A stretch of DNA of 53,347 nucleotides, from the NCBI GenBank assembly GCA_030590945.1, contig JAUVBY010000005.1, forward strand, positions 1-53,347. The letters run 5' to 3'. The position numbers and the translations under genes are program-made. Within the stretch, counting starts at the first letter, position 1; each line of letters opens with the position of its first letter. The notes beneath the pieces are model-generated. The model had not been told where the DNA came from and searched no databases. It worked only from the letters and a program-made list of their open reading frames with translations. Below, piece after piece: positions 8,910 through 45,380 of this stretch. Origin of the DNA: Gammaproteobacteria bacterium. GTDB lineage: Bacteria; Pseudomonadota; Gammaproteobacteria; Arenicellales; Poriferihabitantaceae.

Positions 8910-8926
8910 AATATTTCCTCTATTAA

Positions 8927-11577: not shown

Positions 11578-11890
11578 AAGCTGGGGGCGACAACGATAAA
11601 AATACGGCTTGTATGATTTGGTTCCGGTCAGTCTCAGATAAACAGGTAAACTGATTCAGATTCATTTCTGCCTCATCAACCATAGCATCAATTTTTTCGG
11701 CCAGATCTCGCTCGCATAGCGCCTCATAAAGCTTTGCCACTTTACCGGTGCGTATTTCATTGCGATTAACGATTTGCCGCGCCTGCTGCTGTGCCTGACG
11801 GACACGAGTCTGAGCAGCCTGCTCCTCGTGATCAATCTGCCGCTGGGCTTTTGCCTCGGCATCCAGAACAGTCTGAATCGGATTTGTCAT
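11552..11890 (-). CDS. Putative V/A-type ATPase peripheral stalk subunit G/H-like
   Basis: Coiled-coil VLDAEAKAQRQIDHEEQAAQTRVRQAQQQARQIVNRNE; first gene of the operon. Confidence 0.7.
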   Translation of the reverse strand: MTNPIQTVLDAEAKAQRQIDHEEQAAQTRVRQAQQQARQIVNRNEIRTGKVAKLYEALCERDLAEKIDAMVDEAEMNLNQFTCLSETDRNQIIQAVFLSLSPPAFGEEKPGV

Positions 11891-23519: not shown

Positions 23520-24431
23520 CTATGAATGCTTGTATTTGAATAAATCAGGATCAATTTTGACAGTGGTTAACATACCAAGTCCATGTAGTATTAATTGCTC
23601 GTTTTTTGGAAGGTGATGCAATCGTTTAAAAAGAGCAATGAGCTCTTTATGGCCTTTCTGCCTGGCTTGACGATATAAATCCAACTGTTTCTGTCGAGGT
23701 ATTCCCATCGTATTGCTTGTACCCGTTCCGTCGATGCGTTTCTTCCATTTTCTCAACCAGGTGCTAAAGTCGACACAGTCAAAATGCAATAACTGGAGCT
23801 GGTCGCTTTTTTCAACAGCTAGAATGCCATGGTGTTTTTGTGCATCGTGAATACTGTACTGTTTGATCTCAGGGGTGATCCGGACTGCCATTTTGGAGGC
23901 ACCGTACCCTCGAAAATATCTATTCTCAAAAAATGCATTTGAGCAACCCTGTAATTTTGCTGCCTGGATACTGCGTTTTTGTGATTGTTTTTTAAATAGC
24001 TGCGGTATAAAAATATGCTCACAGTACATATGTTGTGATACGGCTTCTAATAGAGTGAACCTTATGGCCTCTGCATCAGTATTGGCAAGTACCTGTTTTA
24101 TGTCTACTAGCGGATTGATTAACTCGTCGTTATCTATATGTATAAGCCAATTGCATTGTTTGGCGGCTGCCATTTTGGCCCCATTATTTACATTGACAAG
24201 TTGCCGGGCTGCAATAAAATCAGGCCGGCCCCCATTTATATTCCAATACGAGGCTGAACAGGCAATGCATGTTACATTGCTATGTTGTGTAAACGCTTTA
24301 ACTCCTTCATCAGCAGGATCATCGAAAAATAAGATGATCTCATCTATTCCAATATTGAGATGGTAATGTACGTAATGAAGTAAGTCTTCTAATGGTGTTC
24401 TAACGGTTGATACGATGGCTGTTTTGACCAT
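23520..24431 (-). CDS. Glycosyltransferase family 2-like protein
   Basis: MVKTAIVSTVRTPLEDLLHYVHYHLNIGIDEIILFFDDPAD...WLIHIDNDELINP; start at 24431 preceded by AAGGAG. Confidence 0.8.
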   Translation of the reverse strand: MVKTAIVSTVRTPLEDLLHYVHYHLNIGIDEIILFFDDPADEGVKAFTQHSNVTCIACSASYWNINGGRPDFIAARQLVNVNNGAKMAAAKQCNWLIHIDNDELINPLVDIKQVLANTDAEAIRFTLLEAVSQHMYCEHIFIPQLFKKQSQKRSIQAAKLQGCSNAFFENRYFRGYGASKMAVRITPEIKQYSIHDAQKHHGILAVEKSDQLQLLHFDCVDFSTWLRKWKKRIDGTGTSNTMGIPRQKQLDLYRQARQKGHKELIALFKRLHHLPKNEQLILHGLGMLTTVKIDPDLFKYKHS

Positions 24432-24597
24432 TTTATACTCCTTGAATAAATAACCGTATATAAAGCTGCGCCCGGGCATAGGAAGCACGTTGACATAATA
24501 ATGACCCATAACTAATTAAGGTATTGATACATCATCGTCTCCATTGTAATGTAGGATATTTGTTGAAAAGTGTGTAGTATTTTCATTAGGGGAAACG

Positions 24598-25587
24598 ATG
24601 GTCGAATTTGAGGTTGATGTGTATCTGCCGTTTGTTGACGGCAACGATAAAACCTACGTCAGTAAGATGCTGGCATGCGCAGACAGGCTACAGGATTACG
24701 GACAGGGAACCAGTGGTTTGTGCAGAATCAACAATTTCGAACAACTCCGATTAGCCGTACGCAGTATTGCATATTGCCTGCCGTGGATTCGAACACTTCA
24801 TCTTGTATTTCACGATGAATCACATATCCCGGGTTGGTTGAATCGGGACCATCCTAAAATACGAACACATTGCCATCGAGACTATTTTGACTCGCGTATC
24901 AAATTACCGACTTTCAGCAGTTTTACTATTGATACACAGATAGGCCGAGTACCGGGCCTGGCTAATCATTTTATTTATATCGAGGACGATCAGTTTTTCT
25001 GTCGTAAAATTAATAAGTCAGAATTATTTAGTGACAACGGTATGCCCAAATTCGGACATTTTGTTTCCCCTGAAGGAATGAAGGGTTGGCAGAATATGGA
25101 AAGTTTTGACAGGAACGCTCGACTAATCTGGCCCAATACTTATAAATTCTGCAATCAGATCTGGAAAAATAAGTTTGGCGTGAGCGGTGATGTTGAGGTC
25201 ACTATGGCTGACGATCACCGTCCGTTTCCCTTTTTAAAATCAATATTTGAAATAACCAACACCACTTTTAGTGAGCTTTATGACAGGAGCCTGCGGCAGC
25301 GCTTTCGTCGCAGCAATGTGCTGTCTTTACATGCCTACCTTTGGGGAATGGTGTGGAATCAAATGATGATCAACAGGCTGGTATGGCGGCTATCCAGGTT
25401 TAATCTTCCGGGTGGCGCACCTGAAAATCACGTGTATCAAAACTTCCACTCATGTTGCCTCAATGACGAAACGAATTTTAAAGATAGCGACGAGCAATTT
25501 AGCGGTACACAGGAAACCGTGTTAATAATTGAGGCTTTAATGTTAAGCCTGTTCAAAGAAAAATCCTGTTTTGAGGTTGAAGCATGA
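24598..25587 (+). CDS. Stealth-family sugar-1-phosphate transferase
   Basis: CR1-like VDVYLPFVDGNDKTYV; CR2 LPWIRTLHLVFHDESHIPGWLNRDHPKIRTHCHRDYF...LPTFSSFTIDTQIGRVPGLANHFIYIEDDQFF. Confidence 0.85.
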   Translation: MVEFEVDVYLPFVDGNDKTYVSKMLACADRLQDYGQGTSGLCRINNFEQLRLAVRSIAYCLPWIRTLHLVFHDESHIPGWLNRDHPKIRTHCHRDYFDSRIKLPTFSSFTIDTQIGRVPGLANHFIYIEDDQFFCRKINKSELFSDNGMPKFGHFVSPEGMKGWQNMESFDRNARLIWPNTYKFCNQIWKNKFGVSGDVEVTMADDHRPFPFLKSIFEITNTTFSELYDRSLRQRFRRSNVLSLHAYLWGMVWNQMMINRLVWRLSRFNLPGGAPENHVYQNFHSCCLNDETNFKDSDEQFSGTQETVLIIEALMLSLFKEKSCFEVEA

Positions 25588-25976
25588 TCCGGGTTTACAC
25601 GACGGGTGTTTTTGATTTATTTCACGTCGGCCATCTCAGGGCTCTGCGTAAAGCCAAATCACTGGGCGATTATCTGTTGGTCGGGGTGCACAATGATCTC
25701 GTCACATCTAATTATAAACGATGTCCCGTAATACCTTATGAACAGCGAATCGCGATTGTTTCAGCCATTGATTGCGTCGACGAAGTAATCGAAGGCCCAC
25801 TCGAATCATCTCTCCAGTTCTATGAGCAACATCATATTGATATTCATTGCCAGGGCGATGATGCCGGCACGCACTATTGGGCCGCCAAGCAGCTTGGACT
25901 GATACAGTTTTTAGGGCGTTCCAGGGAGATAGATACCAGCCAAATCATCAGGAGAATAACTGAGGAATACCGTTAA
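25584..25976 (+). CDS. Cytidylyltransferase-family protein (glycerol-3-P / ethanolamine-P type)
   Basis: RVYTTGVFDLFHVGHLRALRKAKSLGDYLLVGVHND HxGH motif; ATG overlaps the previous stop. Confidence 0.88.
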   Translation: MIRVYTTGVFDLFHVGHLRALRKAKSLGDYLLVGVHNDLVTSNYKRCPVIPYEQRIAIVSAIDCVDEVIEGPLESSLQFYEQHHIDIHCQGDDAGTHYWAAKQLGLIQFLGRSREIDTSQIIRRITEEYR

Positions 25977-26075: not shown

Positions 26076-27755
26076 TTGCCGGGGCATCTTGGTGCCAAAT
26101 TGAAACTTGATATTCTTTTTTGGTTTTATAAGGATTTCGAGATCTGTAGAGAACGGCTCGAGCAATTACGTGGGCTAAATAAAGACATAAAGATTTTTGC
26201 ACTTTATGGAGGGGCACTAGAAGAAGAACAGGGTGCCAGAAATTCATTGGCAGATATTGTTGATGATTTTTATTATTTTCCGCATGAAAAAGCCCCGGAC
26301 TGGAAATGGAAACATGGGGACCAGTTAATAGTTGACTGGTTTTCCAGTCGTGGAAAGGATCTTGACTGGGAAACAATATTTGTTCTCCAGTGGGATATGT
26401 TAGTGCTCTCTCCTCTGGAAGAAATTTTTTCTGATTTAGAGCCTGGTCAGATAGTTTTATCGGGCTATAGGCCGATAAGTGAAATAGTTGAGTGGTGGCC
26501 CTGGGCAAAGCCACCATTATCAAGTGATTTAGATAAATTTAAAGCATACCTAAAAGTTGAATTAGGCTACCAGGAAGACTTATATGCGTGTTTGTTTGTT
26601 ATTGCATGCCTGCCGCGTGATTTTCTATACAATTATTCTGAATTAAGTAATCCGGAAATTGGATTTTTAGAATATAAATTGCCAACAATGGCAAATTATT
26701 TTAAAACACCAGTATTTTCTTCCACACAGACTACACCATGGTGGGCAAGCGACCCTTTAACAGCAGATGCCCCGGAATCGGAAAAAGTTATCAATGCAGT
26801 TGGAATTGAAATTTCCGAATCAGTTATTTTTAGTGAGCTGGAAAAACAAAATGGAAAAAGAATATTTCATCCTTTTTATGGAAAATATTCTAGCCATAGA
26901 ACCGACTCCACGAATTCCAGGTATGCTGAATTAATATCCCATGCCAACCAGTTATATGAGCTGAGTGACCATGAAAAGGCGATCAGGGTATTTGACGAAG
27001 CGGTAGAGTATGCGGTTCACCATAAGCTACCGCAGAGAATTGTTTGTACGCAGCGCAGTAGTTATAAAGATTACTATGTGATTTCGATGGATGCCCCTGC
27101 GGTTGCTTACTTTCCTGTATCCAAATGCGCGTGTTCAACCATTAAGGCATGGCTTATGTCTGTTGATCACACCCGCCGCACTGCACCAGGGCTTCACCAG
27201 GCGCTTGCTGTCGATGATCATCCTCACGACTACTGGGGTTACGACGCGGACCTGGACTTAGGCAAGTATCAGCATCACCGAAAATTTGCGGTGGTTAGAG
27301 ATCCGCTTGAAAGATTCGTCTCGTTTTACACCAATTTTCTTGACCGGATATCACGGGGCTGGTTTCATGAAGATAATTCATGCGATTCTTATATCAATAA
27401 GACCACCGATATTAACGATTTTGTAGACTATTTCTGCGATCGACCGATACATCATTATTATATTCTCCAGCATACTATGCCTCAGCATGTCAGTCTCAGA
27501 GAAGTATTTCCGTCCCTGGATGAGATATTTACCACCGATGAGCTTGGTAAGGCAAAGGAATTTCTTGAAGATACGTTCGAAATGGCGTTACCAGCATTAC
27601 GGCAAAACGCATCCCACTCAAAACACAAGACCACAACCGCTGTAGAATTGAACCGTGCCTCAGTGGAAAAGCTTATGCATTACTATGCACAAGACTACAA
27701 ATTACTTGAAAACTATTTTGATCCACTGGAAGCCGCTGACAGGTTTGCCCGCTAA
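26076..27755 (+). CDS. Bifunctional GT-like domain plus sulfotransferase (Sulfotransfer_2-like) fusion
   Basis: N-terminal half has GT-A features (IFVLQWDMLVLSPL). C-terminal half has VAYFPVSKCACSTIKAWL (5'-PSB-like) and FAVVRDPLERFVSFYTNFL (3'-PB-like). Start in the track is TTG; true start uncertain. Confidence 0.72.
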   Translation: MPGHLGAKLKLDILFWFYKDFEICRERLEQLRGLNKDIKIFALYGGALEEEQGARNSLADIVDDFYYFPHEKAPDWKWKHGDQLIVDWFSSRGKDLDWETIFVLQWDMLVLSPLEEIFSDLEPGQIVLSGYRPISEIVEWWPWAKPPLSSDLDKFKAYLKVELGYQEDLYACLFVIACLPRDFLYNYSELSNPEIGFLEYKLPTMANYFKTPVFSSTQTTPWWASDPLTADAPESEKVINAVGIEISESVIFSELEKQNGKRIFHPFYGKYSSHRTDSTNSRYAELISHANQLYELSDHEKAIRVFDEAVEYAVHHKLPQRIVCTQRSSYKDYYVISMDAPAVAYFPVSKCACSTIKAWLMSVDHTRRTAPGLHQALAVDDHPHDYWGYDADLDLGKYQHHRKFAVVRDPLERFVSFYTNFLDRISRGWFHEDNSCDSYINKTTDINDFVDYFCDRPIHHYYILQHTMPQHVSLREVFPSLDEIFTTDELGKAKEFLEDTFEMALPALRQNASHSKHKTTTAVELNRASVEKLMHYYAQDYKLLENYFDPLEAADRFAR

Positions 27756-27767
27756 ATGATGCTGGCC

Positions 27768-29981
27768 TTAGCGATAGAACGCCCGGTAAACGGGGTCTTC
27801 GTTAGCTACCAGTCCCGGCTGGCTGAATGGTTTTGGAAAAATGAGATACCTGGAATCGATTCTGCACAGGTATTGATCGATAGCATAGTTCTTCTTCAGC
27901 CATGCAGGCATATCAAGCTCGTTATCAGGAACTTCGTCCAGAATCTGTTTATAAACTGACTGATGGTATGCAATAGCGTGAGTGCATGTCAGCCTGAATT
28001 CTGGCACCTCTACCAAATTGGAACAGCCCTCAGCGAGACTCGGTTCGTAATGTTGTTCGGCGCCCCCCAGGTATAAAACTTTCCATGATTTTTGTTTTAG
28101 TTCTTTCAATCCCATGGAAAGAAACAGCTCTGCACCGGATAACATCATTGCATCATCCTCAAACACCAGTACACTTTTATAACCAAAGCGTGCCGCACGT
28201 TCGATAATGTTGCGATGCGAAAGTGTGCAGCCGATGTGATGCTGTTCCGGTGTATGCACGGCGGGAAAGCGTTGTACTTTATCCGCGATCCCAAGCTGTT
28301 CGAAGCGCTTTTCCATCTGTTCCCATTTATCTGTCTGATGGTCCAGGTTCAAACATACGATCTGATCAAATTCTGAAAAAGGTGAGTGCTTCTCCCGCTC
28401 GACCAGGTTGACGGTTTCTAGTGTCTCTGCACTGCCAATATAATCGCTGAAATAATCAACAACTTGTCGGGTATCCAGGCCAACTTCTTCAAAGCCGATC
28501 AGGTAGTTTCTAATTCGGTGGCTCCAGTCTAAGGTATAGCGAGCACCATGTGGCCGGGCAAAACGATGCGACCACCTGAGAAAAGGCAGGCACAGGCATC
28601 GCCCGCCAGCATTTCTAATTTTCTGGTGAATATAGCCCTCTTCGCCACCAAAACCACGAAACCGTTTATTAAACCCGGGCCAGGTTTCTTTGCGGCAGGC
28701 AAAGACACCCAGTCCCTGCATCTGAATTTCAAAAGGGGGGGCATCCGGGTCAGTTGCACGATCATCAAGGCCCCACACGCCATACATTCCATGGCTCCAC
28801 TTCGGATCAAACTGGCTGGCATGCAGTTCACCTGAATTATTCAGTAACGGCCCCTGAAGCAGGTCTTTACTGTTCGGGTTAGCTTCGATATAGCCGACCA
28901 GGCGATCAAGCGCATTGCTTGTGAACATGACGTGGCAGTCCATGCATAGTACCCAGTCAGCAGTAGCGGTATGAAACAATACGTCTCTCACAGCAGTACT
29001 GGATAAATCATCAAAGGCGATGTATCGAATATTACGGTTCTCGCCTGCCAATGCTTGCAGGTGTTTTGCTGCAGGGCCTTCGGGGTGGTTATCGAGAATT
29101 ACTATTTCAGCCTTATGAAATACCTCGGGGTGGTATAGTTGCAATGCGACAATAGAGAAATAAACTCCGTCATAATCATCGTATGTGGCCATGCCGATCG
29201 TCAGCAGGGGAGCTTCATCAGGCTGATTCAACTGCTCCGGCTTTTCTGGCGGGCCCAACAAAAATATCGACAAGCGCTTTACCATGCGTTCGATAGAATA
29301 CCCGGGTCCCGGGTCTTTCTTCAGCAGGGTGTGTAAAGATACATCGAGGTCAAAGGCTGCGTCGGGTATTGCCAGCCATTTTGGAATCAGAGGGGTCTGT
29401 GCGGGCCGGTTTGAAATGATGTAATCGTAATCGCTGGCGAGCGTTTTGGTGGGATTATCTGATACGAGAATGCTAAGGCAGTCATCTCTGCCCAGGGGTG
29501 GTGCTTCGTTGGCGAAGCTAAATATGATTTCGGCATCATCTGCTGAATCGGTAATCGTAAGCGTTTCAGTCAGGTGCGACAATAACCAGACTACGTAACT
29601 TTCTCGATAATCCAGGTGATCTGGAAAGTGAATAAAATGGACATTTAGATCAAGCAGCGGTTTCGCCGGTGCCGAGGTTTGCTTCTGCTGCCAGGCCAAC
29701 GGAGTAACGCCGCTTTCGGGCAATGATTTGGTGCTCGCTAAACCCAGTGAAATCAGACGCTCAACGTGCGCCTGGCATTTCTCTTTTGACGTTTCCGGAT
29801 AGCGAGCGTGGACCTGTTCCGTGATTTGTTCGGTAGATTTTTCCCCGTCTATGAGGAACCATACCCAGATTCCGAGGCTGTCAAGTTCCCATTCCTGTGT
29901 GGGATTAAATGAAATCAGGCGATATTCGTTCTCAGTGTTGCGCCGTACCACGCAATGCGTGCGAGTGATCGTCATAGACAA
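27768..29981 (-). CDS. PqqD/RRE-like domain - GT2 glycosyltransferase - GT25 glycosyltransferase fusion (737 aa)
   Basis: N-terminus YRLISFNPTQEWELDSLGIWVWFLIDGEKSTEQITEQVHARYPETSKEKCQAHVERLISLGLA is PqqD-like; middle LTIGMATYDDYDGVYFSIVAL...LCMDCHVMFT is GT2; C-terminus IVCLNLDHQTDKWEQMEKRFEQLGI...GCTLSHRNII...VLVFEDDA is GT25. Confidence 0.82.
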   Translation of the reverse strand: MSMTITRTHCVVRRNTENEYRLISFNPTQEWELDSLGIWVWFLIDGEKSTEQITEQVHARYPETSKEKCQAHVERLISLGLASTKSLPESGVTPLAWQQKQTSAPAKPLLDLNVHFIHFPDHLDYRESYVVWLLSHLTETLTITDSADDAEIIFSFANEAPPLGRDDCLSILVSDNPTKTLASDYDYIISNRPAQTPLIPKWLAIPDAAFDLDVSLHTLLKKDPGPGYSIERMVKRLSIFLLGPPEKPEQLNQPDEAPLLTIGMATYDDYDGVYFSIVALQLYHPEVFHKAEIVILDNHPEGPAAKHLQALAGENRNIRYIAFDDLSSTAVRDVLFHTATADWVLCMDCHVMFTSNALDRLVGYIEANPNSKDLLQGPLLNNSGELHASQFDPKWSHGMYGVWGLDDRATDPDAPPFEIQMQGLGVFACRKETWPGFNKRFRGFGGEEGYIHQKIRNAGGRCLCLPFLRWSHRFARPHGARYTLDWSHRIRNYLIGFEEVGLDTRQVVDYFSDYIGSAETLETVNLVEREKHSPFSEFDQIVCLNLDHQTDKWEQMEKRFEQLGIADKVQRFPAVHTPEQHHIGCTLSHRNIIERAARFGYKSVLVFEDDAMMLSGAELFLSMGLKELKQKSWKVLYLGGAEQHYEPSLAEGCSNLVEVPEFRLTCTHAIAYHQSVYKQILDEVPDNELDMPAWLKKNYAIDQYLCRIDSRYLIFPKPFSQPGLVANEDPVYRAFYR

Positions 29982-30168
29982 ATCATGTCAATTTTATTAT
30001 TTAAGGTAAGCACTATCTGTGCCGATTTTCAAAGCACAGTTATAATGTTGACGAACTGGAAAAGGGGTTGCCATCACTATGGCAACCAGGGTCTCGATGT
30101 ACGCGGGCTTTTCTTGTGTTTATCTAGGCTGAAATATATCGGCTAATCAGAGTGAAGCAGGTGGTCGT

Positions 30169-30486
30169 TTATGGGCTTACTGTATTGCATATGAGCCTGG
30201 TAGTTCCTCCAGAATAGGTCGTATAGCAGGAAGTGCTAATCATGGGCGGCTTAGTAGCAGCAACGGTAGTAACAATATTGTCATCGCCAGATGAGTCTGA
30301 ATCGCTCGTTGTATTAGCGTGAGCAGGTAGAATGATGCTATCGACCAGGGGCTTTTTCCAGGTTTCAGGCAGGTTCTGTGCGGCGGCGATTGCTGCAGCA
30401 CTTCCGCCAATGGACTTTAATGCGCCGCGTCGCTTGGTTGATTGAATATTCTTGTCAGCGGTTTGCTTCTTAGTATCGTCTGTCAT
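30169..30486 (-). CDS. Small Tat-leader-like, Ser/Thr-rich protein (candidate modified peptide/secreted substrate)
   Basis: 105 aa from MTDD at 30486 (AGGAC upstream); STKRRGALKSIGGSAAAIAAA twin-Arg region, then LPETWKKPLVDSIILPAHANTT, then a Ser/Thr-rich tail with two Cys. Same strand and directly upstream of the PqqD-GT fusion. Confidence 0.72.
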   Translation of the reverse strand: MTDDTKKQTADKNIQSTKRRGALKSIGGSAAAIAAAQNLPETWKKPLVDSIILPAHANTTSDSDSSGDDNIVTTVAATKPPMISTSCYTTYSGGTTRLICNTVSP

Positions 30487-30671: not shown

Positions 30672-33600
30672 TTATAAAGAACTCTTTGGCAAGGGTTGAT
30701 CAACCAGATTGAGCGCCAGCCGAATGGTTCCCGCTTCTCCCTCATATTGGCGAACGCCTTCTTGTATTAGCTCAATAAGCAGATCGATCTGCCCGGGTTG
30801 CGAGGGCGCCACTACAGGTAATTCAATCTTGCCAGTCTCACCGGGCAGCAAGGCCGGAAGGGGTACACGGCCATCCAGTTGTGACACTATTTGTCCCTCG
30901 GGCGTGTACCACTCGTTCCCCAGTGTCAGCCCGTTATCTTCTCCCCTGGCCCACGCTACAGTGCTCGCATTTTGCACCTCTACCTGCAAAACATAGTGGC
31001 TGCCTGCCGGCAAGGCCTCAGGGGGATCGATCACCCGGAGCTTTACCTGTTTTGCCCCCTTAGGGAGAAGGTAAAGCGGCTTTTTGAGTGCACGTGCAAT
31101 TTGCTGTTCGAGAGCAGTGACGAGGCTCTGGATGTTCGGTTCATCAAAGAACTGCGAATGAGAGCCTGAAATAATCTCCACCTCGTAATCTGAAAAGGCC
31201 CGGCTCCAGGTCAATTCCGGGTAGCGAAACCGGCTATAGGGGTTGGCATGACTGTCGCGACCGAATAGCAGGGTAACCGGTCCGCCGTAGGACTGGGGCC
31301 GGTAGTTCCATTCCATCAGGATAAGGCTGGAAACCTCGTGCTGCCGTCGCAGAAGATGTTGCGCAATCGCCAGTGCGATTCTGCCACCCTGGCAGTTGCC
31401 ACCGAGCAGTAGCGGTCCTGTCGGTTGCAGGGCAATAATTTCCTCGACATAACCAAGCGCAAGCGTCTGGATGTTAAGTTCTGCATAGCTCATCATAGCG
31501 CTGCCTGATCGCATCCCGTAGACGGGCTGATCCTCATCCAGATAGGCGGCGAGTTGCGAGAGCTCGTACTGTGATTGCAGCACCCAGAACAAAGGCGGTT
31601 TCGTGCCACCCGTGTTGTGTCCAATGACCAGACTGTCGGGAGTTGCTCTTTCCCCCCGCCAGCTACCGACATAACTTAGAAGCTTGTCGTAAAGGCCGGG
31701 AACGAGCTGCCAGGGGCCAGCGGCGGGCGAAGCAGGTTGAGGTTCTTTGGCAATGGGCCGGGTTTTCGTTTTGTCCAGCTTCTTTGCAAGTTCAGCTATT
31801 GTGGGATGAGTAAAAAAATATTGCAATGGCATCGCCTGACCAAGCGTTTCTTCAATTCGCGTCACCAGGTGAGCCGAAAGCAGTGAGTGTCCACCCAATG
31901 AAAAAAAATCATCATGTATGCCCGGCAGAGAATCGAGCATCAGCACTTCCTGCCAAATGTTTGCCAGCGTTTCCTCTATAGCTGTGCCCGGAGCTGTGTA
32001 TTCACTGTCCAATATCGAACGGTCCAGCTCAGGAGCCGGCAATGCCTTGCGGTTAAGCTTGCCACTGGGTGTAAGCGGCATCGCGTCTATCGGCATAAAT
32101 AATTCCGGGATCATGGCCCTGGGCAAGTGTTCAGAAAGTGCCCGGCGCAGGCTTTCAGTGGTAGGCAGGTTAGAATCTTCAAGCACAATATAGGCCACCA
32201 GACGTTTCTCGCGGGTGTGATCCTCGCTCACCAGGACAGCAGCCTGCTTAATCTTAGGATGCTGGTTCAGTATGAACCTGATCTCCTCAAGCTCAATACG
32301 TACGCCGTGAATTTTCACCTGGTTGTCCCAGCGCCCTAGAAAATCCAACATGCCATCTGGTCGGTAGCTGCCCCGGTCGCCGGTATAATACACCCGATTC
32401 TGAGGATCATCATGAAACGGATTCACCTGAAACCCAGATTGCTCAATTTCAGTGTCAACCAGGTAGCCAAGAGTTCCGAAGGGACTGCACAACACAATTT
32501 CCCCTGTTTCTCCGACTCCTGCAAGCGCCCCGCCCCGGTTAAGAATTAAGGCTTGAGTCTGGGGTAGTGGGCGGCCTATTGCCTGAAAACCGGGTAGCGG
32601 CTGCCCTTTGATGACCTGGAAGCATTTTGCCATTGTAGTTTCTGTCGGGCCGTACAGATTAACGATGCTACAACGATCCGGTAACAGGGCGCGCCAGTCT
32701 TTGACAGCCGTGTCTGTCAGGGCCTCGCCTGCGAAAAAAAGCAGTCGTAAGCCTGCCAAAGATGCTTGTTTCGGTGCGTCTAGCAACCAGGATTGTGCGA
32801 CCGAGGGTACGGTATGCATGATGGTAATGGCGCGTTGTTGTAGCCAGCGTAAAATGTTTGATTCCTCATCCTCCAGTGGAAGGCACAATACTGCACCACT
32901 GGTGAGTGGCAGGAAAATGTCCCGTAAAACCACGTCGAAGGAAATATTCGTTAACTGGGCAATCCGGTCATCCACACCCACATCGAATTGTTTCTGTTGC
33001 CAGGAGATAAAATGCCCCAGGCCCTTGTGAGAGCCGAGTATGCCCTTTGGTGTGCCGCTGGTGCCGGAGGTAAAAAAGATATAGGCCGGATCATCAGGCC
33101 CGGGGATGGTTAGATCAATCCAGGTATCCTTATCTGTAGCAGCTTCTATTGTTGGTCGACCGGTATCGGCTGCAAGCGCCAGGACGGGAATATTCTCACT
33201 GGTTTTTTGGCTCTCTTCCAGAGCGTTTCCAACTACGATCTGCATACTGGCCTGACCTGTTTTCAGCATAGTTGCGCGTCTTTTAGCTGGTAGATCAGGA
33301 TCGACCGGTAGCATTACGCCACCGCTTCTAAGGATGCCCAGCATGGCCGCGATCAGGCCGAAACTGCGTTTGCCAGTCACCGCAACAGCCTCCCCTTTAG
33401 CGATGCCTCGACAGTGTATCAACTGGGCAATCAGTTCTGATGTATGATCCAGTTCGGCATAGCTCCAGAACTGTTCACCCTGGCTTACTGCCGCCCGTTT
33501 CGAGTACTTCGCGGCACACGCTTCGAACATTATTGTAACCGGTTGTTGAGGCGGTTCTTCCAGTATGTGTTCAGGGTCAGGCAGCAACTCACAGGATTTA

Positions 33601-36600
33601 GCGTCAACCAGTGAAAATGACTGGATCGACAGGTCGGGGGCTGCGACAATCTGTTCCAGTAAATAGCCATACTGGCGCAACATACAGTCTATATGACTGG
33701 CATCGAAGAGCTCCGTCTGATAAACGAAACTGAGCTGAATACCTTCCTGGGAAGGAGAGATATATAATTCCAACGGGAATTTGGAGATGGTGGCACTAGA
33801 AGCTTCCCGGCGCCTGTCCAGATCGGCAAAACGAGCGTTTTTTTGATCCCGCCCTTCACGAAAATTAATCATCACATTGAAAAATGGGGTGCGCGAAGCA
33901 TGGCGTTCGGGTTGCAACGTTTCCACTAATTTTTCAAACGGCAGGTCCTGGTGTGCATAAGCGTCCAACGCCATTTCACGAATTCGGCCGAGCAAATCAA
34001 TAAAGGGTGGATTGCCGCTTAGGTCGGTTCGTAAAACTAGTGTGTTAACAAATAAACCAAGCAGACCTTCGTGTTCAGGACGCGTGCGCCCGGCGATCGG
34101 AGTGGCGATGACGATATCTTCCTGGCCCCGGTAGCGGTGTAACAGTGTCTTGAATGCGCCGAGAAGAGTCATAAACAAGCTTACGCCTGTTGTCTGACTT
34201 AAGGCCTTTAATTTTTTACTCAACCCGGGGGTCAGCTTGAGGGATTGCTGTGCTCCGTGAAAGTTTTGTTCCTGTAGCTGTAAGCGATCAAAAGGTAATT
34301 TCAGCATCGGCGAATCATTCAGTTTTTTCCGCCAATAGGAAAGTTGTTCGTCCAAATCACCGCTTTGAATTTTCCGGTGTTGCCACAACGAGTAGTCTGC
34401 ATACCGAAAGGGCAGTGGTGGCAGAGGCGACGGCTGACCAGTACTGTATGCCGTATAAAGTTTTTCGAGTTCCTGCATCATCAAATCCATGCTCAACCCG
34501 TCGGTAATAATATGATGTATCACCAGTATCAGTACGTGCTGCCCGGGGTCCAGGCACAACAGTTTTACGTGGATAAGAGGCCCTTTTTCCAGGTCAAAAG
34601 TTGTTTCTGCAGCCTCCTGGACGTGCTGTTTGATTTGTTCATCCATTGCCTCGACATCAAGTTCAATTACAGGCAAAGGTAATTCCATTTCTGGTGCAAT
34701 AATTTGTACAGCGATACCATGGGGTGCAGCAAAGCTTGTACGGAGCGTTTCGTGGCGTTGCACCAGTGTGTTAAAAGCCCGTTGCAACGCTTTCTTATGC
34801 AGCGTTCCGCTCAAACGCAAAGCCAGCCTGATATTGTATGTGGAGACATCCGGGTAGAGGCGATCGAGAAACCAGAGTCGTTGCTGGGCAAAGGACAGCG
34901 GCGGGGCTTTACGTTCTGGTTCACGTACAGCTGTTATGCCATGTTTCTGCTGTGGCTGCATCGATAATGGCCCGGATTGCTCCAATTCCCCGGCAACTTC
35001 TGCGATGGTGGGGTGGATATAGAAAAACTGTAAAGGTATTACCAGTTTAAGGCTTTCTTCTATTCGAGTGACCATCTGAACGGCGAGTAATGAGTGTCCA
35101 CCGAGCGCAAAAAAGTCGTCGTGTATACCAGGAGGAGTATCGAGTGACAGTAGTTTCTGCCACAGCTTCACCAGAGTTTTTTCCACCGTCGTGCGTGGGA
35201 GTGCATACTCACTATCCTGCATTAAATGCTGCAGTTCAGGGATGGGTAGAGCCTTGCGGTCCAGCTTGCCACTGGAGGTGAGGGGCAATGCATCCAGAGG
35301 CACAAAAATTCCCGGGATCATGGCATTGGGCAGGCGCTCGGCAAGTGCCCGGCGCAAGGCCCTGGTAGTTGGTGGGTCGGTCTTTTCTAAAACAATATAC
35401 GCAACCAGGCGTTTATCGCCACCCTGGTCTTCACGCACCAGAATGGCCGCCTCTTTTATTCCAGGGTGTTTTGCGAGTACTATCCTGATTTCCTCGAGCT
35501 CCATGCGCACACCGTGAATTTTCACCTGGTCGTCCAGACGCCCCAGAAAATCCAGCGCACCGTCAGGTCGGTAACAGCCCTTATCGCCCGTGTAATATAT
35601 AGTCTCCTGTACGTCATCCCGGAACGGGCTTGTCCTGAATCCTGAATCGGCTTCCTCTGAAGCGGCAAGGTAACCCAGGGTATTAAAAGGGCTGCGTATC
35701 ACTATTTCGCCCGCCTCACCAATTCCTGCGAGGGCTCCATCTTTATTCAAAATCAGGGATTGAGTTTGGGGATACGCCTGGCCTATTGGCTGGATTCCGG
35801 GTGGTATTTGTTTACCCACGATATGGAAGCATTTTGCAACGGTGGCTTCTGTCGGCCCGTATTGGTTGACGATGGTGCAACTACCGGGCACCCTGGTGCG
35901 CCACTCTTCCACTACCGTATCCGCTAACGCTTCACCCCCAAATGAAATTAGACGCAGGGCCGGTAAGGATACGTCTTCGGGCAAATCAAGTAGCCAGGAT
36001 TGCGCAACTGAGGGAACAACGGCCATTGCCGTTATTGCCTGTCGCTGAAGCCAGCGAACAACCTCTGCTTCCTCCTTATGCGATGGCAGGCAGAGGACAC
36101 TTGCACTGGTTAATGGCAGGAAAATATCAAACAGAGCAGCGTCGAAGGAAATACTCGAGAGCTGGGCAACCCGGTCGTCTTTGCCGATGTTGAACTGATT
36201 CTGCTGCCAGGAGATATAGTGCCCAAGCCCTTTATGAGAGCCAAGTATGCCTTTTGGCTTGCCAGTGGAGCCGGAGGTAAAAAAGATATAGGCAGGGTCA
36301 TCGGGCTCAGGAACGGGTAGATCGACCCGTCCTTCGCTATGATCAGGGGGTTTTGTTGTTACTTCCCCGGTAGCGCTCTCCAGTTCCAGATTGGGGAAAT
36401 CTACGCCAGCCAAATTGCTCTCATCCTGTGCATTTCCGACAACGATCTGCATCCGGGCATGTGCGATTTTAAGCATGGTCGCGCGTCTTTTAGCTGGCAA
36501 TTTAGCGTCAACCGGCAACATCACGTTGCCACTTTTGAGGATGCCCAGCATGGCTGCGATCAAGCCGAAGCTGCGCTCGCCGGTAACAGCGACAACGTCT

Positions 36601-39600
36601 CCCTTATCGATACCTTGACAATGCAGCAATTGGGCGATTGAATCTGATGTGCGATCCAGTTCCCTATATGTCCAGCTCAGCTCGCCCTGGCTTACGGCTT
36701 CCCGTTCGGGGTGTTGCCTGACACAGTTAGTGAAAGCTACCGTAACAAGCTGTTGAGTGGGTTCTTCCAGCGACCGGGCAGGATCCGGCAGCAGTTTGCG
36801 GGACTCAGTATCGACCAGTGAATAGGACTGGACTGGCTGATCGGGAGCGACGACAATCTGTTCCAATAAATAGCCATATTGGCGCAACATACAGTCTATG
36901 TGTTCGGCATCGAAGAGATCCGTCTGATAAACCATGCTGAGCATAATGCCTTCCAGGGAAGGGATTATGCCCAATGCCAGGGGAAACTTGGAGGTGGTCA
37001 TCCCGGTGTCTTCCGGGCGTATGCCCAGATCGGCGAAACGGGTGCGTTTCTGATCCTGATCCTCGTGAAAATTGATCATCACGTTGAAGAAAGGAGTGCG
37101 CCCAATGTCACGTTCCGGCTGTAACTTTTCGACCAGTTTTTCAAACGGAAGCTCCTGGTGTGCATACGCGCTCAATGCCATTTCCCGAACTCGACCGAGC
37201 AATTCGATAAAGGTTGGGTTACCGCTAAGGTCAGTACGTAGTACCAGCGTGTTAACAAAAAAACCAAGCAGGCCTTCGTGTTCAGGCCGTGTGCGCCCGG
37301 CGATCGGTGTAGCAATCACGATATCTTCCTGATCCCGGTAACGGTGCAAGAGTGTCTGGAATGCGCCGAGAAAGGTCATAAAAAGGCTTACGCCTGTTGT
37401 TTGACTCAAAGCCTTCAGATTCTTGCTCAGCTCGGCAGGCAGTTTAAGCGATCGTCTTGCACCCTGAAAGTTTTGTTTCAGTGGGTAGGGCCGGTCGATT
37501 GGCAGTTCCAGCATTGGTGACTCTTTTAGCTGTAATTGCCAGTAGGCAAGTTGTTCGTCGAACTTTCCAGCTTGCAATTGCTGGTGTTGCCAGACTGCAT
37601 AGTCTGCATACTGAAAGGGCAATGGCGTCAGGGGTGACGGTTGACCACTGCTGTACGCAGAATAGAGGGTTTCGAGTTCCCGCATCATCAGAGTCTGGCT
37701 TATACCATCCGTAATGATGTGGTGTAATACGAGTATCAGGACATGCTGCCCCGGATCAATGCGCAATAGTTTTGCGCGGATTAATGGCCCCTGTGCTAAA
37801 TCAAACAGTGTTTGTGCAGATCTTTTTATGTGCTGCTGGATTTGTACTTCAATGTGCTGATCTATCCCGGCATCCAGATCAATCACCGGCACGGGCAACT
37901 CCATTTCCGGCGCAATGATTTGCACGGCCTGACCGAGGGTTGTGGCAAAGGATGTACGCAGCGTCGCGTGGCGTTGAGCTAGCGTATTAAATGCTCTTCG
38001 CAGTGCATCCTTATGCAGCGCTCCGCTCAAACGGAAAACTCGCATAGTGTTATAGATGTATGAGTCGGGGTATAGGTGGTCAAGAAACCAGAGCCGTTGT
38101 TGGGAAAAGGACAAAGGAGGTGCTGCACTGCCGGATCGAGCTTCGATTTTCTCGACAGGCTTCTGCTGGTGCTGTATCAATGCCTGCCCGGATGAATCCA
38201 GTTCCTTTGCGACTTCAAAAACCGTGGGACGGGTGAAAAAATCTTGCAAAGATAAGGTCTGGTTCAGGGTCTCTTCAATTCTTGCCACCAGATGCACAGC
38301 GAGCAGGGAGTGACCGCCCAATGTGAAAAAGTCGTCGTGTATGCCCGGAGCTACATCAAGTTTTAACACCTCCTGCCACAGGTCCACAAGGTATTTCTCC
38401 ACTGAGGTGTTTGGGGGCACGTATTCACTGCTCAACATTGAGCGGTTCAGTTCGGGGGCCGGCAGCGCCTTGCGATCAAGTTTGCCGCCAGGAGTGAGCG
38501 GCATCGCCGCCAGTGGAATAAAAATGCCCGGGATCATGGTATTGGGCAGATGCTCGGCAAGCGCCAGGCGCAGGGTTTCGGTAGTGGGTGGATCATCACG
38601 ATCGAGAACAACATAGGCTGCCAGGCGCTTATCTCCGGGATGCTCTTCATGCACCAGAATTACTGCATCTTCGACTCCGGGGAGGCCTTTCAGAAGGGCC
38701 CTGATCTCCTCAAGTTCGATGCGTACGCCGTGAATTTTCACCTGCTCGTCCCAACGACCAAGAAAATCCAATGTACCATCAGGTTGGTAACATCCCCGGT
38801 CGCCGGTGTAATACACAATATCCTGAGTATCATTTCGAAACGGGTTTACTTTAAACCCCGAAGCGCTGTCCCCGGAAGCCGCAAGATAACCCAGGGTGCC
38901 AAAGGGGGTTCGTAGTACGATTTCACCTTCCTCGCCAACCCCCGCCAGCGTTCCATCCCGGTTCAGAATCAAAGCCTGAGCTTGTGGCAGAGCGCGGCCA
39001 ATTGATTGAGTGCCGGGTTGTAGCGGCCCATCCAGAATATGAAAGCATTTTGCCAGCGTGGTTTCGGTTGGCCCATACTGGTTAACGATGGTGCAATCAT
39101 CCTTTAGCCGGGTGCGCCACGCCCTGACTACTGTATCCGTCAGAGCTTCGCCTCCAAATGAGAGTAAACGCATGGCGGGCAGTAATATCCCGTTCGGAGC
39201 ATTGAATAGCCAGGATTGTGCAACCGAAGGCACGGTATGAGTGAACGTAATGCCCTGGCGCTTCAGCCAGGGCAATACATCAGACTCTTCCTTCGCCAGC
39301 GGCAGGCAGAGCACCCCGGCACTACTCAGAGGTAGAAAAATATTCCGTAGACCTCCATCGAAGGAAAGGCTGCTTAGTTGAGCGACTCGATCATAGGTGC
39401 CATCGGCAAACTGTGTTCTTTGCCAGGAAATAAAATGCCCCAGGCCTTTGTGAGAGCCAAGTATGCCCTTTGGTGTGCCGGTGGTGCCGGACGTAAAGAA
39501 GATATAGGCAGGGTCATCGGGTTGGGGCGTTGGCAGCTCAGCCCATTCATCGCGGTGAACGGGTGAAATAACGGCTGCCAAACCAGTATCGGCGTCTAGT

Positions 39601-41468
39601 TGTAGAACGGGAATATGTCTTACGGTCGATTTATTCACGACCCGGTCGTTAGTAATCACAATCTGCTGCCTGGCCTGTGCGATCTGTAGCATGGTTGTGC
39701 GTCTTTTGACAGGCAGACCTGAATCAACCGGCAGCATCACCCCGCCACATTTAAGAATCCCCAGGATGGCAACAATCTGGCCGAAGCTTCGCTCACCTGT
39801 AATTGCAACAGCGTCGCCCCTGGCGATGCCGAGTTGGTGCAGAATTTGAGCAAGCTCGTTTGACGCCTGATCCAGCTGCGAATAAGACCAGTGTCGCTTG
39901 CCATGGCTCACCGCTTCCCGTTTCGGGTATTGCTCAACATTTTCAGCGAACAGGGCTGTAACGGTTGGCTGGACAGGCGCTTCCAGCACCCGGGACGGGT
40001 CCGGTAACAATTTACGCGACTCGGCATCAATTAGTGAATAGGAGAGAATGGGTTGTTCCGGATTTACGACAAGTTGTTGCAGAAAATAACTATATTGGCG
40101 CAGGATACTGTCTACACGCCCGGCATCAAAAAAAGCCGTCTGGTAGTCCATCCTGAGTTCAAAGCCTTTGCTGGAAGGTGATATATATAATGCCAGTGGA
40201 AATGTGCAGACGGTAACGCGTGGCTCTTCCTGGCTTACGTCTATATCCGCAAAGTCTGTCCATTGGTCCAGTCCTTCGCGGAAATTAATCATCACATTGA
40301 AGAAGGGGTTGCGTGCAGCCTGGCGTTCCACTTGCAACTTTTCAACCAGTTTGGCAAAAGTGAGGTCCTGGTGTTCAAAAGCGTCCAGCGCGGTTTCCCG
40401 AACCCGGCCTAGCAGTTCGATAAACGTCGGGTTGCCGCCTAAATCGGTACGTAGTACCAGTGTATTGACGAAATAACCGAGCAGGCTGTCGAGCTCAGGT
40501 CGCGTGCGCCCGGAAATTGGAGTAGCGATGACAATATCTTCCTGTCCTCGATAGCGGTGTAACAATGCCTGGAACGCCCCCAGAAAGGTCATGAACAAGC
40601 TTACGTTCGCTGATAGACTTAAGGCCTTTAGTTTTTCGCCAAGCCCGGCGGGCAGTTTAAGCGTTCGCTTTGCCCCGTGAAAATTCTGTTCCGATGGATG
40701 CGAACGATTGCCTGGCAACTCCAGCATTGAAGCGTTCTTCAGTTTTGATCGCCAGTAGGCAATCTGCTTATCGAACTTTCCAGCTTGCATACTCTGGTGT
40801 TGCCACGCAGCATAGTCAGCGTACTGGAGCGGTAACGGCGCCAGAGGTGAGGCCTGGCCATTGCTGTATGCTGCGTACAGGGCAGCGAGTTCCTGTATGA
40901 TCAAGTTCAGGCTTAAGCCATCCGTAATGGTGTGGTGTATTACCAGGACCAGCACATGTTGATCTGGTTCAATGCGTAGTAGTTTTACACGGATTAATGG
41001 TCCCCGGGCTAAATCAATTGGTTCTTGCTCAGCTTTTTTCGTTTGCTGATCAATTTGCTGATTAATTTGCTGCTTTGTTCCGGGGTCCAGATCAATCACC
41101 GGCACCGGTAATTTCATTTCCGGCGCAATGATTTGTACAGGCTGGCCGTGGGACGTGGCAAAGGAAGTACGCAATGTCTCGTGGCGTTCGACAAGTGTGT
41201 CGAACGCTTGCTGAAGTACTTTTTCCTGCAGCATACCGGTCAGGCGAAAAGCTCGTGTGACGTTGTAAATCGTAACGCCAGGGTAGAGTCGATCAAGAAA
41301 CCAGAGTTGTTGCTGGGCGAACGACAAAGGAGGCGCTTCATTGCCTGATCGAGGTGCGATTTTTGCGCTGGTTTTCTGTAGTCTCCGTTTCAGTAATTGT
41401 AGTCGCGCGGGAGAGAGTCGCGCCAGCACTTCCGGTGAGTTAGGGCGGGGTGGGTTGCCTGGTTTCAT
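30672..41468 (-). CDS. Trimodular NRPS: (C-A-PCP)x3-TE plus C-terminal Ig/NBR1-like beta domain
   Basis: Three C domains (HHTITDG, HHIITDG, HHIITDG), three A domains (FFTSG[TS][TS]G[TK]PKG; NQYGPTE/NLYGPTE; YYTGD[RK]G), three PCPs (FF[TAS]LGGHSLL), TE motif GGNCQGG with later GSHSQFF. Likely start MKPGNPPRP at 41468. Confidence 0.95.
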   Translation of the reverse strand: MKPGNPPRPNSPEVLARLSPARLQLLKRRLQKTSAKIAPRSGNEAPPLSFAQQQLWFLDRLYPGVTIYNVTRAFRLTGMLQEKVLQQAFDTLVERHETLRTSFATSHGQPVQIIAPEMKLPVPVIDLDPGTKQQINQQIDQQTKKAEQEPIDLARGPLIRVKLLRIEPDQHVLVLVIHHTITDGLSLNLIIQELAALYAAYSNGQASPLAPLPLQYADYAAWQHQSMQAGKFDKQIAYWRSKLKNASMLELPGNRSHPSEQNFHGAKRTLKLPAGLGEKLKALSLSANVSLFMTFLGAFQALLHRYRGQEDIVIATPISGRTRPELDSLLGYFVNTLVLRTDLGGNPTFIELLGRVRETALDAFEHQDLTFAKLVEKLQVERQAARNPFFNVMINFREGLDQWTDFADIDVSQEEPRVTVCTFPLALYISPSSKGFELRMDYQTAFFDAGRVDSILRQYSYFLQQLVVNPEQPILSYSLIDAESRKLLPDPSRVLEAPVQPTVTALFAENVEQYPKREAVSHGKRHWSYSQLDQASNELAQILHQLGIARGDAVAITGERSFGQIVAILGILKCGGVMLPVDSGLPVKRRTTMLQIAQARQQIVITNDRVVNKSTVRHIPVLQLDADTGLAAVISPVHRDEWAELPTPQPDDPAYIFFTSGTTGTPKGILGSHKGLGHFISWQRTQFADGTYDRVAQLSSLSFDGGLRNIFLPLSSAGVLCLPLAKEESDVLPWLKRQGITFTHTVPSVAQSWLFNAPNGILLPAMRLLSFGGEALTDTVVRAWRTRLKDDCTIVNQYGPTETTLAKCFHILDGPLQPGTQSIGRALPQAQALILNRDGTLAGVGEEGEIVLRTPFGTLGYLAASGDSASGFKVNPFRNDTQDIVYYTGDRGCYQPDGTLDFLGRWDEQVKIHGVRIELEEIRALLKGLPGVEDAVILVHEEHPGDKRLAAYVVLDRDDPPTTETLRLALAEHLPNTMIPGIFIPLAAMPLTPGGKLDRKALPAPELNRSMLSSEYVPPNTSVEKYLVDLWQEVLKLDVAPGIHDDFFTLGGHSLLAVHLVARIEETLNQTLSLQDFFTRPTVFEVAKELDSSGQALIQHQQKPVEKIEARSGSAAPPLSFSQQRLWFLDHLYPDSYIYNTMRVFRLSGALHKDALRRAFNTLAQRHATLRTSFATTLGQAVQIIAPEMELPVPVIDLDAGIDQHIEVQIQQHIKRSAQTLFDLAQGPLIRAKLLRIDPGQHVLILVLHHIITDGISQTLMMRELETLYSAYSSGQPSPLTPLPFQYADYAVWQHQQLQAGKFDEQLAYWQLQLKESPMLELPIDRPYPLKQNFQGARRSLKLPAELSKNLKALSQTTGVSLFMTFLGAFQTLLHRYRDQEDIVIATPIAGRTRPEHEGLLGFFVNTLVLRTDLSGNPTFIELLGRVREMALSAYAHQELPFEKLVEKLQPERDIGRTPFFNVMINFHEDQDQKRTRFADLGIRPEDTGMTTSKFPLALGIIPSLEGIMLSMVYQTDLFDAEHIDCMLRQYGYLLEQIVVAPDQPVQSYSLVDTESRKLLPDPARSLEEPTQQLVTVAFTNCVRQHPEREAVSQGELSWTYRELDRTSDSIAQLLHCQGIDKGDVVAVTGERSFGLIAAMLGILKSGNVMLPVDAKLPAKRRATMLKIAHARMQIVVGNAQDESNLAGVDFPNLELESATGEVTTKPPDHSEGRVDLPVPEPDDPAYIFFTSGSTGKPKGILGSHKGLGHYISWQQNQFNIGKDDRVAQLSSISFDAALFDIFLPLTSASVLCLPSHKEEAEVVRWLQRQAITAMAVVPSVAQSWLLDLPEDVSLPALRLISFGGEALADTVVEEWRTRVPGSCTIVNQYGPTEATVAKCFHIVGKQIPPGIQPIGQAYPQTQSLILNKDGALAGIGEAGEIVIRSPFNTLGYLAASEEADSGFRTSPFRDDVQETIYYTGDKGCYRPDGALDFLGRLDDQVKIHGVRMELEEIRIVLAKHPGIKEAAILVREDQGGDKRLVAYIVLEKTDPPTTRALRRALAERLPNAMIPGIFVPLDALPLTSSGKLDRKALPIPELQHLMQDSEYALPRTTVEKTLVKLWQKLLSLDTPPGIHDDFFALGGHSLLAVQMVTRIEESLKLVIPLQFFYIHPTIAEVAGELEQSGPLSMQPQQKHGITAVREPERKAPPLSFAQQRLWFLDRLYPDVSTYNIRLALRLSGTLHKKALQRAFNTLVQRHETLRTSFAAPHGIAVQIIAPEMELPLPVIELDVEAMDEQIKQHVQEAAETTFDLEKGPLIHVKLLCLDPGQHVLILVIHHIITDGLSMDLMMQELEKLYTAYSTGQPSPLPPLPFRYADYSLWQHRKIQSGDLDEQLSYWRKKLNDSPMLKLPFDRLQLQEQNFHGAQQSLKLTPGLSKKLKALSQTTGVSLFMTLLGAFKTLLHRYRGQEDIVIATPIAGRTRPEHEGLLGLFVNTLVLRTDLSGNPPFIDLLGRIREMALDAYAHQDLPFEKLVETLQPERHASRTPFFNVMINFREGRDQKNARFADLDRRREASSATISKFPLELYISPSQEGIQLSFVYQTELFDASHIDCMLRQYGYLLEQIVAAPDLSIQSFSLVDAKSCELLPDPEHILEEPPQQPVTIMFEACAAKYSKRAAVSQGEQFWSYAELDHTSELIAQLIHCRGIAKGEAVAVTGKRSFGLIAAMLGILRSGGVMLPVDPDLPAKRRATMLKTGQASMQIVVGNALEESQKTSENIPVLALAADTGRPTIEAATDKDTWIDLTIPGPDDPAYIFFTSGTSGTPKGILGSHKGLGHFISWQQKQFDVGVDDRIAQLTNISFDVVLRDIFLPLTSGAVLCLPLEDEESNILRWLQQRAITIMHTVPSVAQSWLLDAPKQASLAGLRLLFFAGEALTDTAVKDWRALLPDRCSIVNLYGPTETTMAKCFQVIKGQPLPGFQAIGRPLPQTQALILNRGGALAGVGETGEIVLCSPFGTLGYLVDTEIEQSGFQVNPFHDDPQNRVYYTGDRGSYRPDGMLDFLGRWDNQVKIHGVRIELEEIRFILNQHPKIKQAAVLVSEDHTREKRLVAYIVLEDSNLPTTESLRRALSEHLPRAMIPELFMPIDAMPLTPSGKLNRKALPAPELDRSILDSEYTAPGTAIEETLANIWQEVLMLDSLPGIHDDFFSLGGHSLLSAHLVTRIEETLGQAMPLQYFFTHPTIAELAKKLDKTKTRPIAKEPQPASPAAGPWQLVPGLYDKLLSYVGSWRGERATPDSLVIGHNTGGTKPPLFWVLQSQYELSQLAAYLDEDQPVYGMRSGSAMMSYAELNIQTLALGYVEEIIALQPTGPLLLGGNCQGGRIALAIAQHLLRRQHEVSSLILMEWNYRPQSYGGPVTLLFGRDSHANPYSRFRYPELTWSRAFSDYEVEIISGSHSQFFDEPNIQSLVTALEQQIARALKKPLYLLPKGAKQVKLRVIDPPEALPAGSHYVLQVEVQNASTVAWARGEDNGLTLGNEWYTPEGQIVSQLDGRVPLPALLPGETGKIELPVVAPSQPGQIDLLIELIQEGVRQYEGEAGTIRLALNLVDQPLPKSSL

Positions 41469-41475
41469 AGTAATC

Positions 41476-43188: not shown

Positions 43189-43192
43189 CACC

Positions 43193-45064: not shown

Positions 45065-45380
45065 TTTTAACTCATATTCTGTCAAATTTAAATCGATACT
45101 ATCACACAAGAATTGATGCGAATATGCATTCCTTGTTCAAAAGAAGAATCGGGACGCCGGAAATTTATGTAAGTAGGAAAATATGTCGAATTGTTGTCTC
45201 AACACGATGTCCATCGCTATTCTTAACCACGTTTACACGGTGTCGTTGTTGAAATTAGCGAACCGGGAAGCCAGCACGCCGAATGGAAAATATTAGTGCA
45301 GGTGATCCTTATGCATATGCTGATATTATGATTTAATACCTGAGTTAGAGCTGAGCTATAATCACTTATGATCAAAAATT

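Follow-up and report, generated by a model that had tools for sequence, protein, structure and literature searches.

A probable RRE-guided O-glycosylation module for Thr-rich, Tat-exported proteins in a gammaproteobacterium

Several described systems stand close to the locus analysed here. Pathways for ribosomally synthesised and post-translationally modified peptides (RiPPs) that depend on a RiPP recognition element (RRE), such as those of the lasso-peptide proteins TbiB1 and TfuB1 and of StsA/StsC, share with it a PqqD-fold domain, discrete or fused, a Y/WxxP leader spacing and a precursor gene beside that of the enzyme; YxxP is the characterised RRE motif of lasso peptides. Polypeptide GalNAc-transferases (GT27) and the collagen galactosyltransferase COLGALT1 (GLT25D1) both act on protein acceptors. 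RRE-glycosyltransferase fusions noted by RRE-Finder have been reported as unexplained, and they have in common with the present locus an RRE fused to a PF00535 glycosyltransferase (PMC7470986; PMC12710340). The locus lies in a 53,347-nt stretch of a Gammaproteobacteria bacterium of the Arenicellales (contig JAUVBY010000005.1, positions 1 to 53,347), which we call the window. It is probably an RRE-guided cytoplasmic protein O-glycosylation module, in which Thr/Ser tails are modified before export by the twin-arginine translocation (Tat) pathway.

An earlier note on this stretch had described a 105-aa twin-Arg protein upstream of, and on the same strand as, a 737-aa PqqD-GT2-GT25 protein. Both open reading frames (ORFs) are found with the sequences that it quoted, and their domains are assigned by Pfam. 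The features of the two genes are as follows.

30169..30486, minus strand: candidate substrate gene, 105 aa, Tat leader and Ser/Thr-rich tail (ORF, leader homologues)
30316..30432, minus strand: leader, residues 19-57, RRGALKSIGG...LPETWKKPLVDSIILPAHA, twin-Arg signal (alignment A1)
30349..30360, minus strand: WKKP, proposed RRE recognition motif of WxxP type (WxxP conservation, StsC precedent)
30172..30315, minus strand: mature tail, residues 58-105 (48 aa), with two Cys, proposed acceptor region (composition)
27768..29981, minus strand: RRE-GT2-GT25 fusion, 737 aa, proposed modifying enzyme (ORF, Pfam, model, fold match)
29724..29972, minus strand: PqqD/RRE domain, residues ~4-86 (Pfam PF05402 8.8e-7, model, RRE profile)
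28377..29204, minus strand: GT2 domain, residues 260-535, with DxH, GGEE and W-x-H-R-F motifs (alignments A2 and A5, fold match)
27774..28364, minus strand: GT25 domain, residues 540-736 (Pfam, COLGALT1 match)

The smaller ORF starts with ATG at 30486 and its stop ends at 30169; the larger, downstream, starts with TTG, an alternative ATG following six bases later. Since the 188-nt gap between them holds no terminator-like site on the minus strand, co-transcription of the two genes is possible. Against Pfam and NCBIfam, the 105-aa protein gives nothing but sub-threshold chance matches.

In the 737-aa protein, Pfam places PqqD at residues 31-77 (E 8.8e-7), Glycos_transf_2 at residues 290-370 (3.7e-6) and Glyco_transf_25 at residues 582-663 (3.7e-6), all above the gathering cut-offs. 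Its AlphaFold model, built from 56 sequences (predicted local distance difference test, pLDDT, 84.9; predicted template-modelling score, pTM, 0.74), begins with strands and then three helices, the element order of PqqD-type RREs, and continues with two high-confidence transferase domains. The Pfam match and this element order bear out the RRE that the earlier note had read at the N-terminus, and a profile built from the RREs found in this analysis matches PqqD (5sxy, 3g2b) and the lasso RREs TbiB1 (5v1u) and TfuB1 (6jx3) in the PDB. A PqqD-fold RRE in the modifying enzyme is a mark by which RRE-guided modification is recognised.

The GT2 domain resembles enzymes that start mucin-type glycosylation. 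The 50 best PDB matches of its model (pLDDT 94.8) are all polypeptide GalNAc-transferases, several of them crystallised with mucin peptides (TM-score ~0.63-0.74, ~15% identity, E 1e-14 to 2e-11 by Foldseek). An independent sequence profile reaches GalNAc-T10 in the PDB (E 0.0012), DxH aligning on DxH and GGEE...GGR...P..R..H on GGE...GGR...P..R..H, and D96, H98, E196 and H220 are invariant in the family (alignment A5). The GT-A fold and the DxH and (W)GGE...H motifs of GT27 are all present; Pfam assigns the domain to Glycos_transf_2 and finds no lectin domain, and it is therefore called GT27-like here, as working at most like such an enzyme, and not filed as GT27. For the whole 737-aa enzyme, the best PDB match is human COLGALT1, a GT25 enzyme.

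The leader of the 105-aa protein ends in A-H-A, a signal-peptidase-like site, and its consensus, RRKLLKxxxAGxG...LPxxWxKPVVDSVxLPAHAQTS, has invariant R, W, P, L, P, H and A (alignment A1, 28 sequences). The twin-Arg n-region, the hydrophobic stretch, the AxA-type cleavage site and a TatC encoded in the source genome (1.6e-71) are features of Tat substrates, and export is predicted. A search of 60 related genomes with the 105-aa protein matched dozens of proteins, mainly over residues ~14-66, rather than one orthologue. The leader is a recurring N-terminal signal on varied proteins, up to ~20 in a genome and about eight in the source genome, and its homologues are present throughout the order; confinement to the gene beside the fusion enzyme was thus rejected. 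Many cargoes are 150-350 aa long and most are without Pfam domains (one Peptidase_S74 chaperone and one Gly-rich domain in a sample of ten). A PqqD domain is encoded in 23/23 of the clear-leader genomes and in 8/37 of the others (Fisher 3.6e-10), a comparison confounded by relatedness and genome size. In a 150-genome sample of the phylum the leader was found, at 1e-6, in the window's own genome only, so that its profile is specific, though the leader is rare; PqqD is common there (81 of the 150) and is therefore by itself no predictor of the system.

Within the leader, WKKP fits WxxP, a motif that has experimental support from StsC, alteration of the W-V or K-P of a WxxP leader having abolished retention by this discrete RRE (PMC12710340). 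WxxP is present in 49/49 leaders beside the GT2 family and in 7% of shuffled leaders, the profile having been seeded with W-containing leaders. In the actinobacterial leaders that were seen, the W is absent and a P-V-[VI] core is retained; where the RRE is fused in cis, a core like P-[VS]-[VI] is still present. As in RRE-guided modification, a ribosomal precursor with a conserved leader and an RRE-type motif stands beside the enzyme.

The GT2 domain forms a family of its own. When 85,462 species genomes were scanned with this domain alone, 80 loci were obtained from at least six phyla (Gamma- and Alphaproteobacteria, Desulfobacterota, Acidobacteriota, Actinomycetota, Bacteroidota and others), the domain being ~45-58% identical to that of the window across very different fusions. 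Within the sequence examined at each locus, to which all counts over the 80 refer, the leader is found in 33 and an RRE in 48, in 12 cases within the GT2 ORF itself. A substrate candidate, taken as the leader or as a twin-Arg ORF with at least eight Thr in 20 residues, occurs in 56 of the 80, usually within 4 kb. At a distance of 1-2 kb from GT2, Thr-rich twin-Arg ORFs have a density of up to 20 per 100 kb, which drops to ~1 per 100 kb past 4 kb on the same contigs; they are 12-fold denser up to 4 kb than beyond (p 2e-15). A few of those counted are probably spurious frames, which affect near and far alike. Leader homologues across the order, together with this peptide/GT2 pairing, place the association beyond chance. 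Peptides of the 'KPxVxSxxLPAHA' type, which the earlier note expected beside such enzymes, do adjoin this GT2 family across phyla, and the fusions without a nearby small peptide that it named as evidence against itself are not what most loci present. Separately, in two Rhodococcus loci (L172, L173; the culturable R. erythropolis included), the GT2 family has as neighbours a discrete RRE and a twin-Arg protein that carries Gly/Pro/Ser/Thr repeats.

The tails beside GT2 are mucin-like, rich in Thr and Pro. Many leader proteins end there, after the AHA site, in runs like TTTTTTTTTT or PTTTAAPTTTAAP, and in Alphaproteobacteria two to four short leader proteins often stand in tandem. Median tail Thr is 26% beside GT2 (50 tails) and, for leader proteins located away from it, 10% (36 tails; p 1e-11); tandem paralogues in this per-tail count are not independent, and the per-locus median beside GT2 is 29%. 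Furthermore, five loci carry beside GT2 a single ORF that runs from an RRE through a twin-Arg signal to a Thr-rich tail: two of Microthrix (L140, L143), one of another actinomycete (L135), one of Acidobacteria (L146) and one of Fraserbacteria (L152). A recogniser fused to its own substrate is strong genetic evidence of joint function.

These tails bear on the idea of a secreted small glycopeptide natural product, a bacteriocin-like analogue of the glycocins. The short precursor with its two Cys, the RRE and the adjoining nonribosomal peptide synthetase (NRPS) and sulfotransferase genes would suit such a product, but the same leader heads many 150-350-aa proteins of varied sequence, the repetitive Thr/Pro tails are like structural mucins and unlike antibiotics, and no dedicated ATP-binding cassette (ABC) exporter-protease adjoins in the window. 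We hold this reading to be very improbable; the substrates seem to be mucin-like proteins exported by Tat rather than a small glycopeptide natural product. The leader-guided glycopeptide system of the earlier note stands in so far as the pairing of RRE, leader and glycosyltransferase recurs, and is to be refined in that the leader is not peculiar to the small protein, many of its carriers being larger and far from RRE genes.

Since nucleotide-sugar enzymes are active in the cytoplasm and the cargo of Tat is finished proteins, modification and export would be coupled by a leader that served both as RRE ligand and as Tat signal. We infer the following order of steps. In the cytoplasm, the N-terminal RRE of the 737-aa enzyme would bind the leader segment W-x-K-P-x-V, in the way that lasso and sactipeptide RREs bind YxxP/WxxP leaders. 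Tail Thr/Ser would then receive a first sugar from the GT2 domain, with GT25 adding a second one or modifying other residues. The modified protein would be exported by Tat through the signal in the same leader, and cleavage after LPAHA would release a mucin-like peptide. The sequence comparisons and structural models support the core of what the earlier note proposed, namely that the RRE may recruit the leader and the fused transferases glycosylate the Ser/Thr tail.

Several observations weigh against this module. The tail of the 105-aa protein has only a moderate Thr content (23% Thr, 40% Ser+Thr). No RRE is detected in 32 of the 80 GT2 loci, and in 24, several of which are short contigs, neither a leader nor a Thr-rich peptide could be recognised up to 6 kb away. 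Among the 37 genomes outside the clear-leader set, three give a single weak match to the leader and lack PqqD. An HprK-like domain is found in 46 of the 80 loci, fused to GT2 in 36, and is missing from 34. Lastly, ~135 of 149 leader proteins are encoded more than 5 kb from any PqqD gene and 14 within 5 kb; confinement of the leader to the neighbourhood of PqqD was rejected on this count, and cis pairing cannot account for most leader genes.

This distance between leader and PqqD genes would be expected if the leader were merely a specialised Tat signal, the RRE-glycosyltransferase acted on a surface polysaccharide or on the NRPS product, and the small gene stood beside it by coincidence. The plausible Tat signal with its AHA cleavage site, the standing of GT25 as the lipopolysaccharide-glycosyltransferase family and the NRPS, which lies upstream and ends 186 bp from the leader gene, all agree with such a view. 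We nevertheless consider it unlikely: the pairing of leader or Thr-rich ORF with GT2 recurs in most of the loci, natural RRE-substrate fusions exist, GT2 has the fold of polypeptide-modifying enzymes, and the invariant W and P of the leader are unneeded by a Tat signal. A glycosylated NRPS product was rejected, as the homologous loci inspected show no NRPS.

Given the frequency of the HprK-like domain, the chemistry could include phosphorylation. On a further rival view, the tails would mainly be phosphorylated, or given a nucleotide or phospho-sugar, by the HprK-like kinase and NTP_transf_5, with the glycosyltransferases acting later or on the phosphate. An NTP_transf_5 gene lies near GT2 in 29 of the 80 loci, and HprK-related kinases phosphorylate the lasso peptide paeninodin. 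The HprK-like relatives score 27-100 bits against a TIGR04352 cut-off of 200, short of an HPr-rel-A cassette. The constancy of GT2 is no argument here, because the loci were chosen by GT2; with no kinase domain found by Pfam or NCBIfam in the 737-aa window enzyme, and with the loci that lack an HprK-like domain, we judge a mainly phosphorylating system quite improbable.

Glycosylation of leader-bearing proteins before Tat export thus stays the preferred reading. A wider one is evenly poised: that the locus belongs to a widespread, unrecognised class of RRE-guided post-translational modification, in which one Tat-type leader marks many proteins for interchangeable RRE-fused enzymes (GT2/GT27-like, GT25, GT32, GT90, GT10, sulfotransferase, LicD and hydroxylases), glycosylation precedes export and bacterial mucins result. 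As part of that class, and with the same even standing, RiPP-style logic would serve a general surface-glycoprotein system, not one natural product.

In the same order, RREs are also fused to GT90, GT10, GT11, GT4, GT32, a galactosyltransferase-like domain, a sulfotransferase, LicD and a 2-oxoglutarate-Fe(II) (2OG-Fe(II)) oxygenase. An RRE-oxygenase fusion is seen in a relative (L188), and in the source genome a 319-aa RRE protein that by eye resembles such a fusion adjoins a leader gene (L042). In L042 also, a 427-aa protein (8881-10164, minus strand) beside a leader gene matches nothing in Pfam, and its N-terminus looks RRE-like by eye; it is possibly a further RRE-fused enzyme type. At L084 (G030:C18:18100-28300), the neighbours of a leader peptide with a Pro/Thr-rich tail are a gene of the protein O-fucosyltransferase family and one for a 1170-aa protein that combines hydroxyproline-arabinosyltransferase (HPAT), GlcNAc-transferase (PF11397) and 2OG-Fe(II) oxygenase domains. 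This is again a set of tools for protein glycosylation, and from its sequence it may represent a bacterial kit of eukaryote-like type for the glycosylation of hydroxyproline.

The surroundings of the two genes in the window are listed below.

26076..27755, plus strand: sulfotransferase-containing protein, convergent neighbour, possible decorating enzyme (Sulfotransfer_2 6e-13)
24598..25587, plus strand: Stealth-family protein, probable sugar-phosphate transferase, possible accessory (Pfam Stealth_CR2 7.8e-29)
25584..25976, plus strand: cytidylyltransferase-like protein, possible accessory (Pfam CTP_transf_like 3e-18)
23520..24509, minus strand: GT2_4-family glycosyltransferase, possible accessory (Pfam 7.8e-10)
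30672-45109, minus strand: three-module NRPS (three condensation, three adenylation and three peptidyl carrier protein domains, thioesterase) with a thiamine diphosphate-dependent enzyme and an AMP-ligase-like protein
51569-51877, plus strand: stand-alone second PqqD/RRE gene, 102 aa
51928-52437, minus strand: 2OG-Fe(II) oxygenase (PF13759), convergent with the 102-aa RRE gene
3886-11890, minus strand: V/A-type ATPase operon, assigned by eye only

The adjoining sulfotransferase, Stealth protein, cytidylyltransferase and extra glycosyltransferase could take part in glycan decoration; in loci L048 and L049 a sulfotransferase adjoins, or is fused to, the same GT2 family. In G001, three small proteins that bear the shorter leader form RRNLLKGAAWSAPVVLAISLPKHAQAT flank a relative of the 102-aa RRE gene (L058:4466-4810). 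Elsewhere in the source genome (L047, G000:C12), an HprK-like protein, a stand-alone PqqD and a radical SAM-resembling protein are encoded consecutively, a row that resembles SynChlorMet/HprK-type peptide-modification cassettes. A plasmid search gave distant GT25 matches and nothing else.

If the proposed module is real, RRE-glycosyltransferase fusions, so far without a defined substrate, would gain a testable substrate class and motif, and RiPP leader-recognition logic would extend to multi-substrate protein glycosylation coupled to Tat. Bacterial enzymes would start mucin-type O-glycosylation on programmable leader-tagged proteins, providing a bacterial counterpart of the animal ppGalNAc-transferase fold.

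In comparison with RRE-dependent RiPPs, the leader here doubles as a Tat signal and is common to many proteins per cell; the predicted acceptors are mucin-like tails or whole domains, and the predicted enzymes glycosyltransferases. With GT27 the window enzyme shares the fold, the DxH and GGE motifs and Thr/Pro-rich acceptor candidates, but it is bacterial, ~15% identical, devoid of a lectin domain and apparently leader-guided through its RRE. COLGALT1, like it in whole-enzyme structure and a GT25 enzyme acting on protein, is 14% identical, has no RRE and modifies collagen hydroxylysine. The HprK-related kinase A system (TIGR04352) has in common the HprK-like domain, discrete PqqD and NTP_transf_5 that accompany the GT2 family in many loci, but these HprK domains fall below its cut-off and the window enzyme has none. 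Glycocins rely on a SunS-type GT2, a double-Gly leader and an ABC exporter-protease, whereas the leader here is twin-Arg with AHA and no exporter-protease adjoins, and the locus is not counted among them. The available text of the RRE-Finder reports lists fusions, and neither a Tat leader nor a Thr-rich substrate nor a fold like that of polypeptide GalNAc-transferases is named in it (PMC7470986; PMC12710340). No description of these three traits of RRE-glycosyltransferases was found in the open-access literature, with preprints and most subscription papers outside that search; the fusions are already known, and their substrate class and mechanism are apparently undescribed. The system would be a form of RRE-guided modification, with a real chance of deserving a class of its own.
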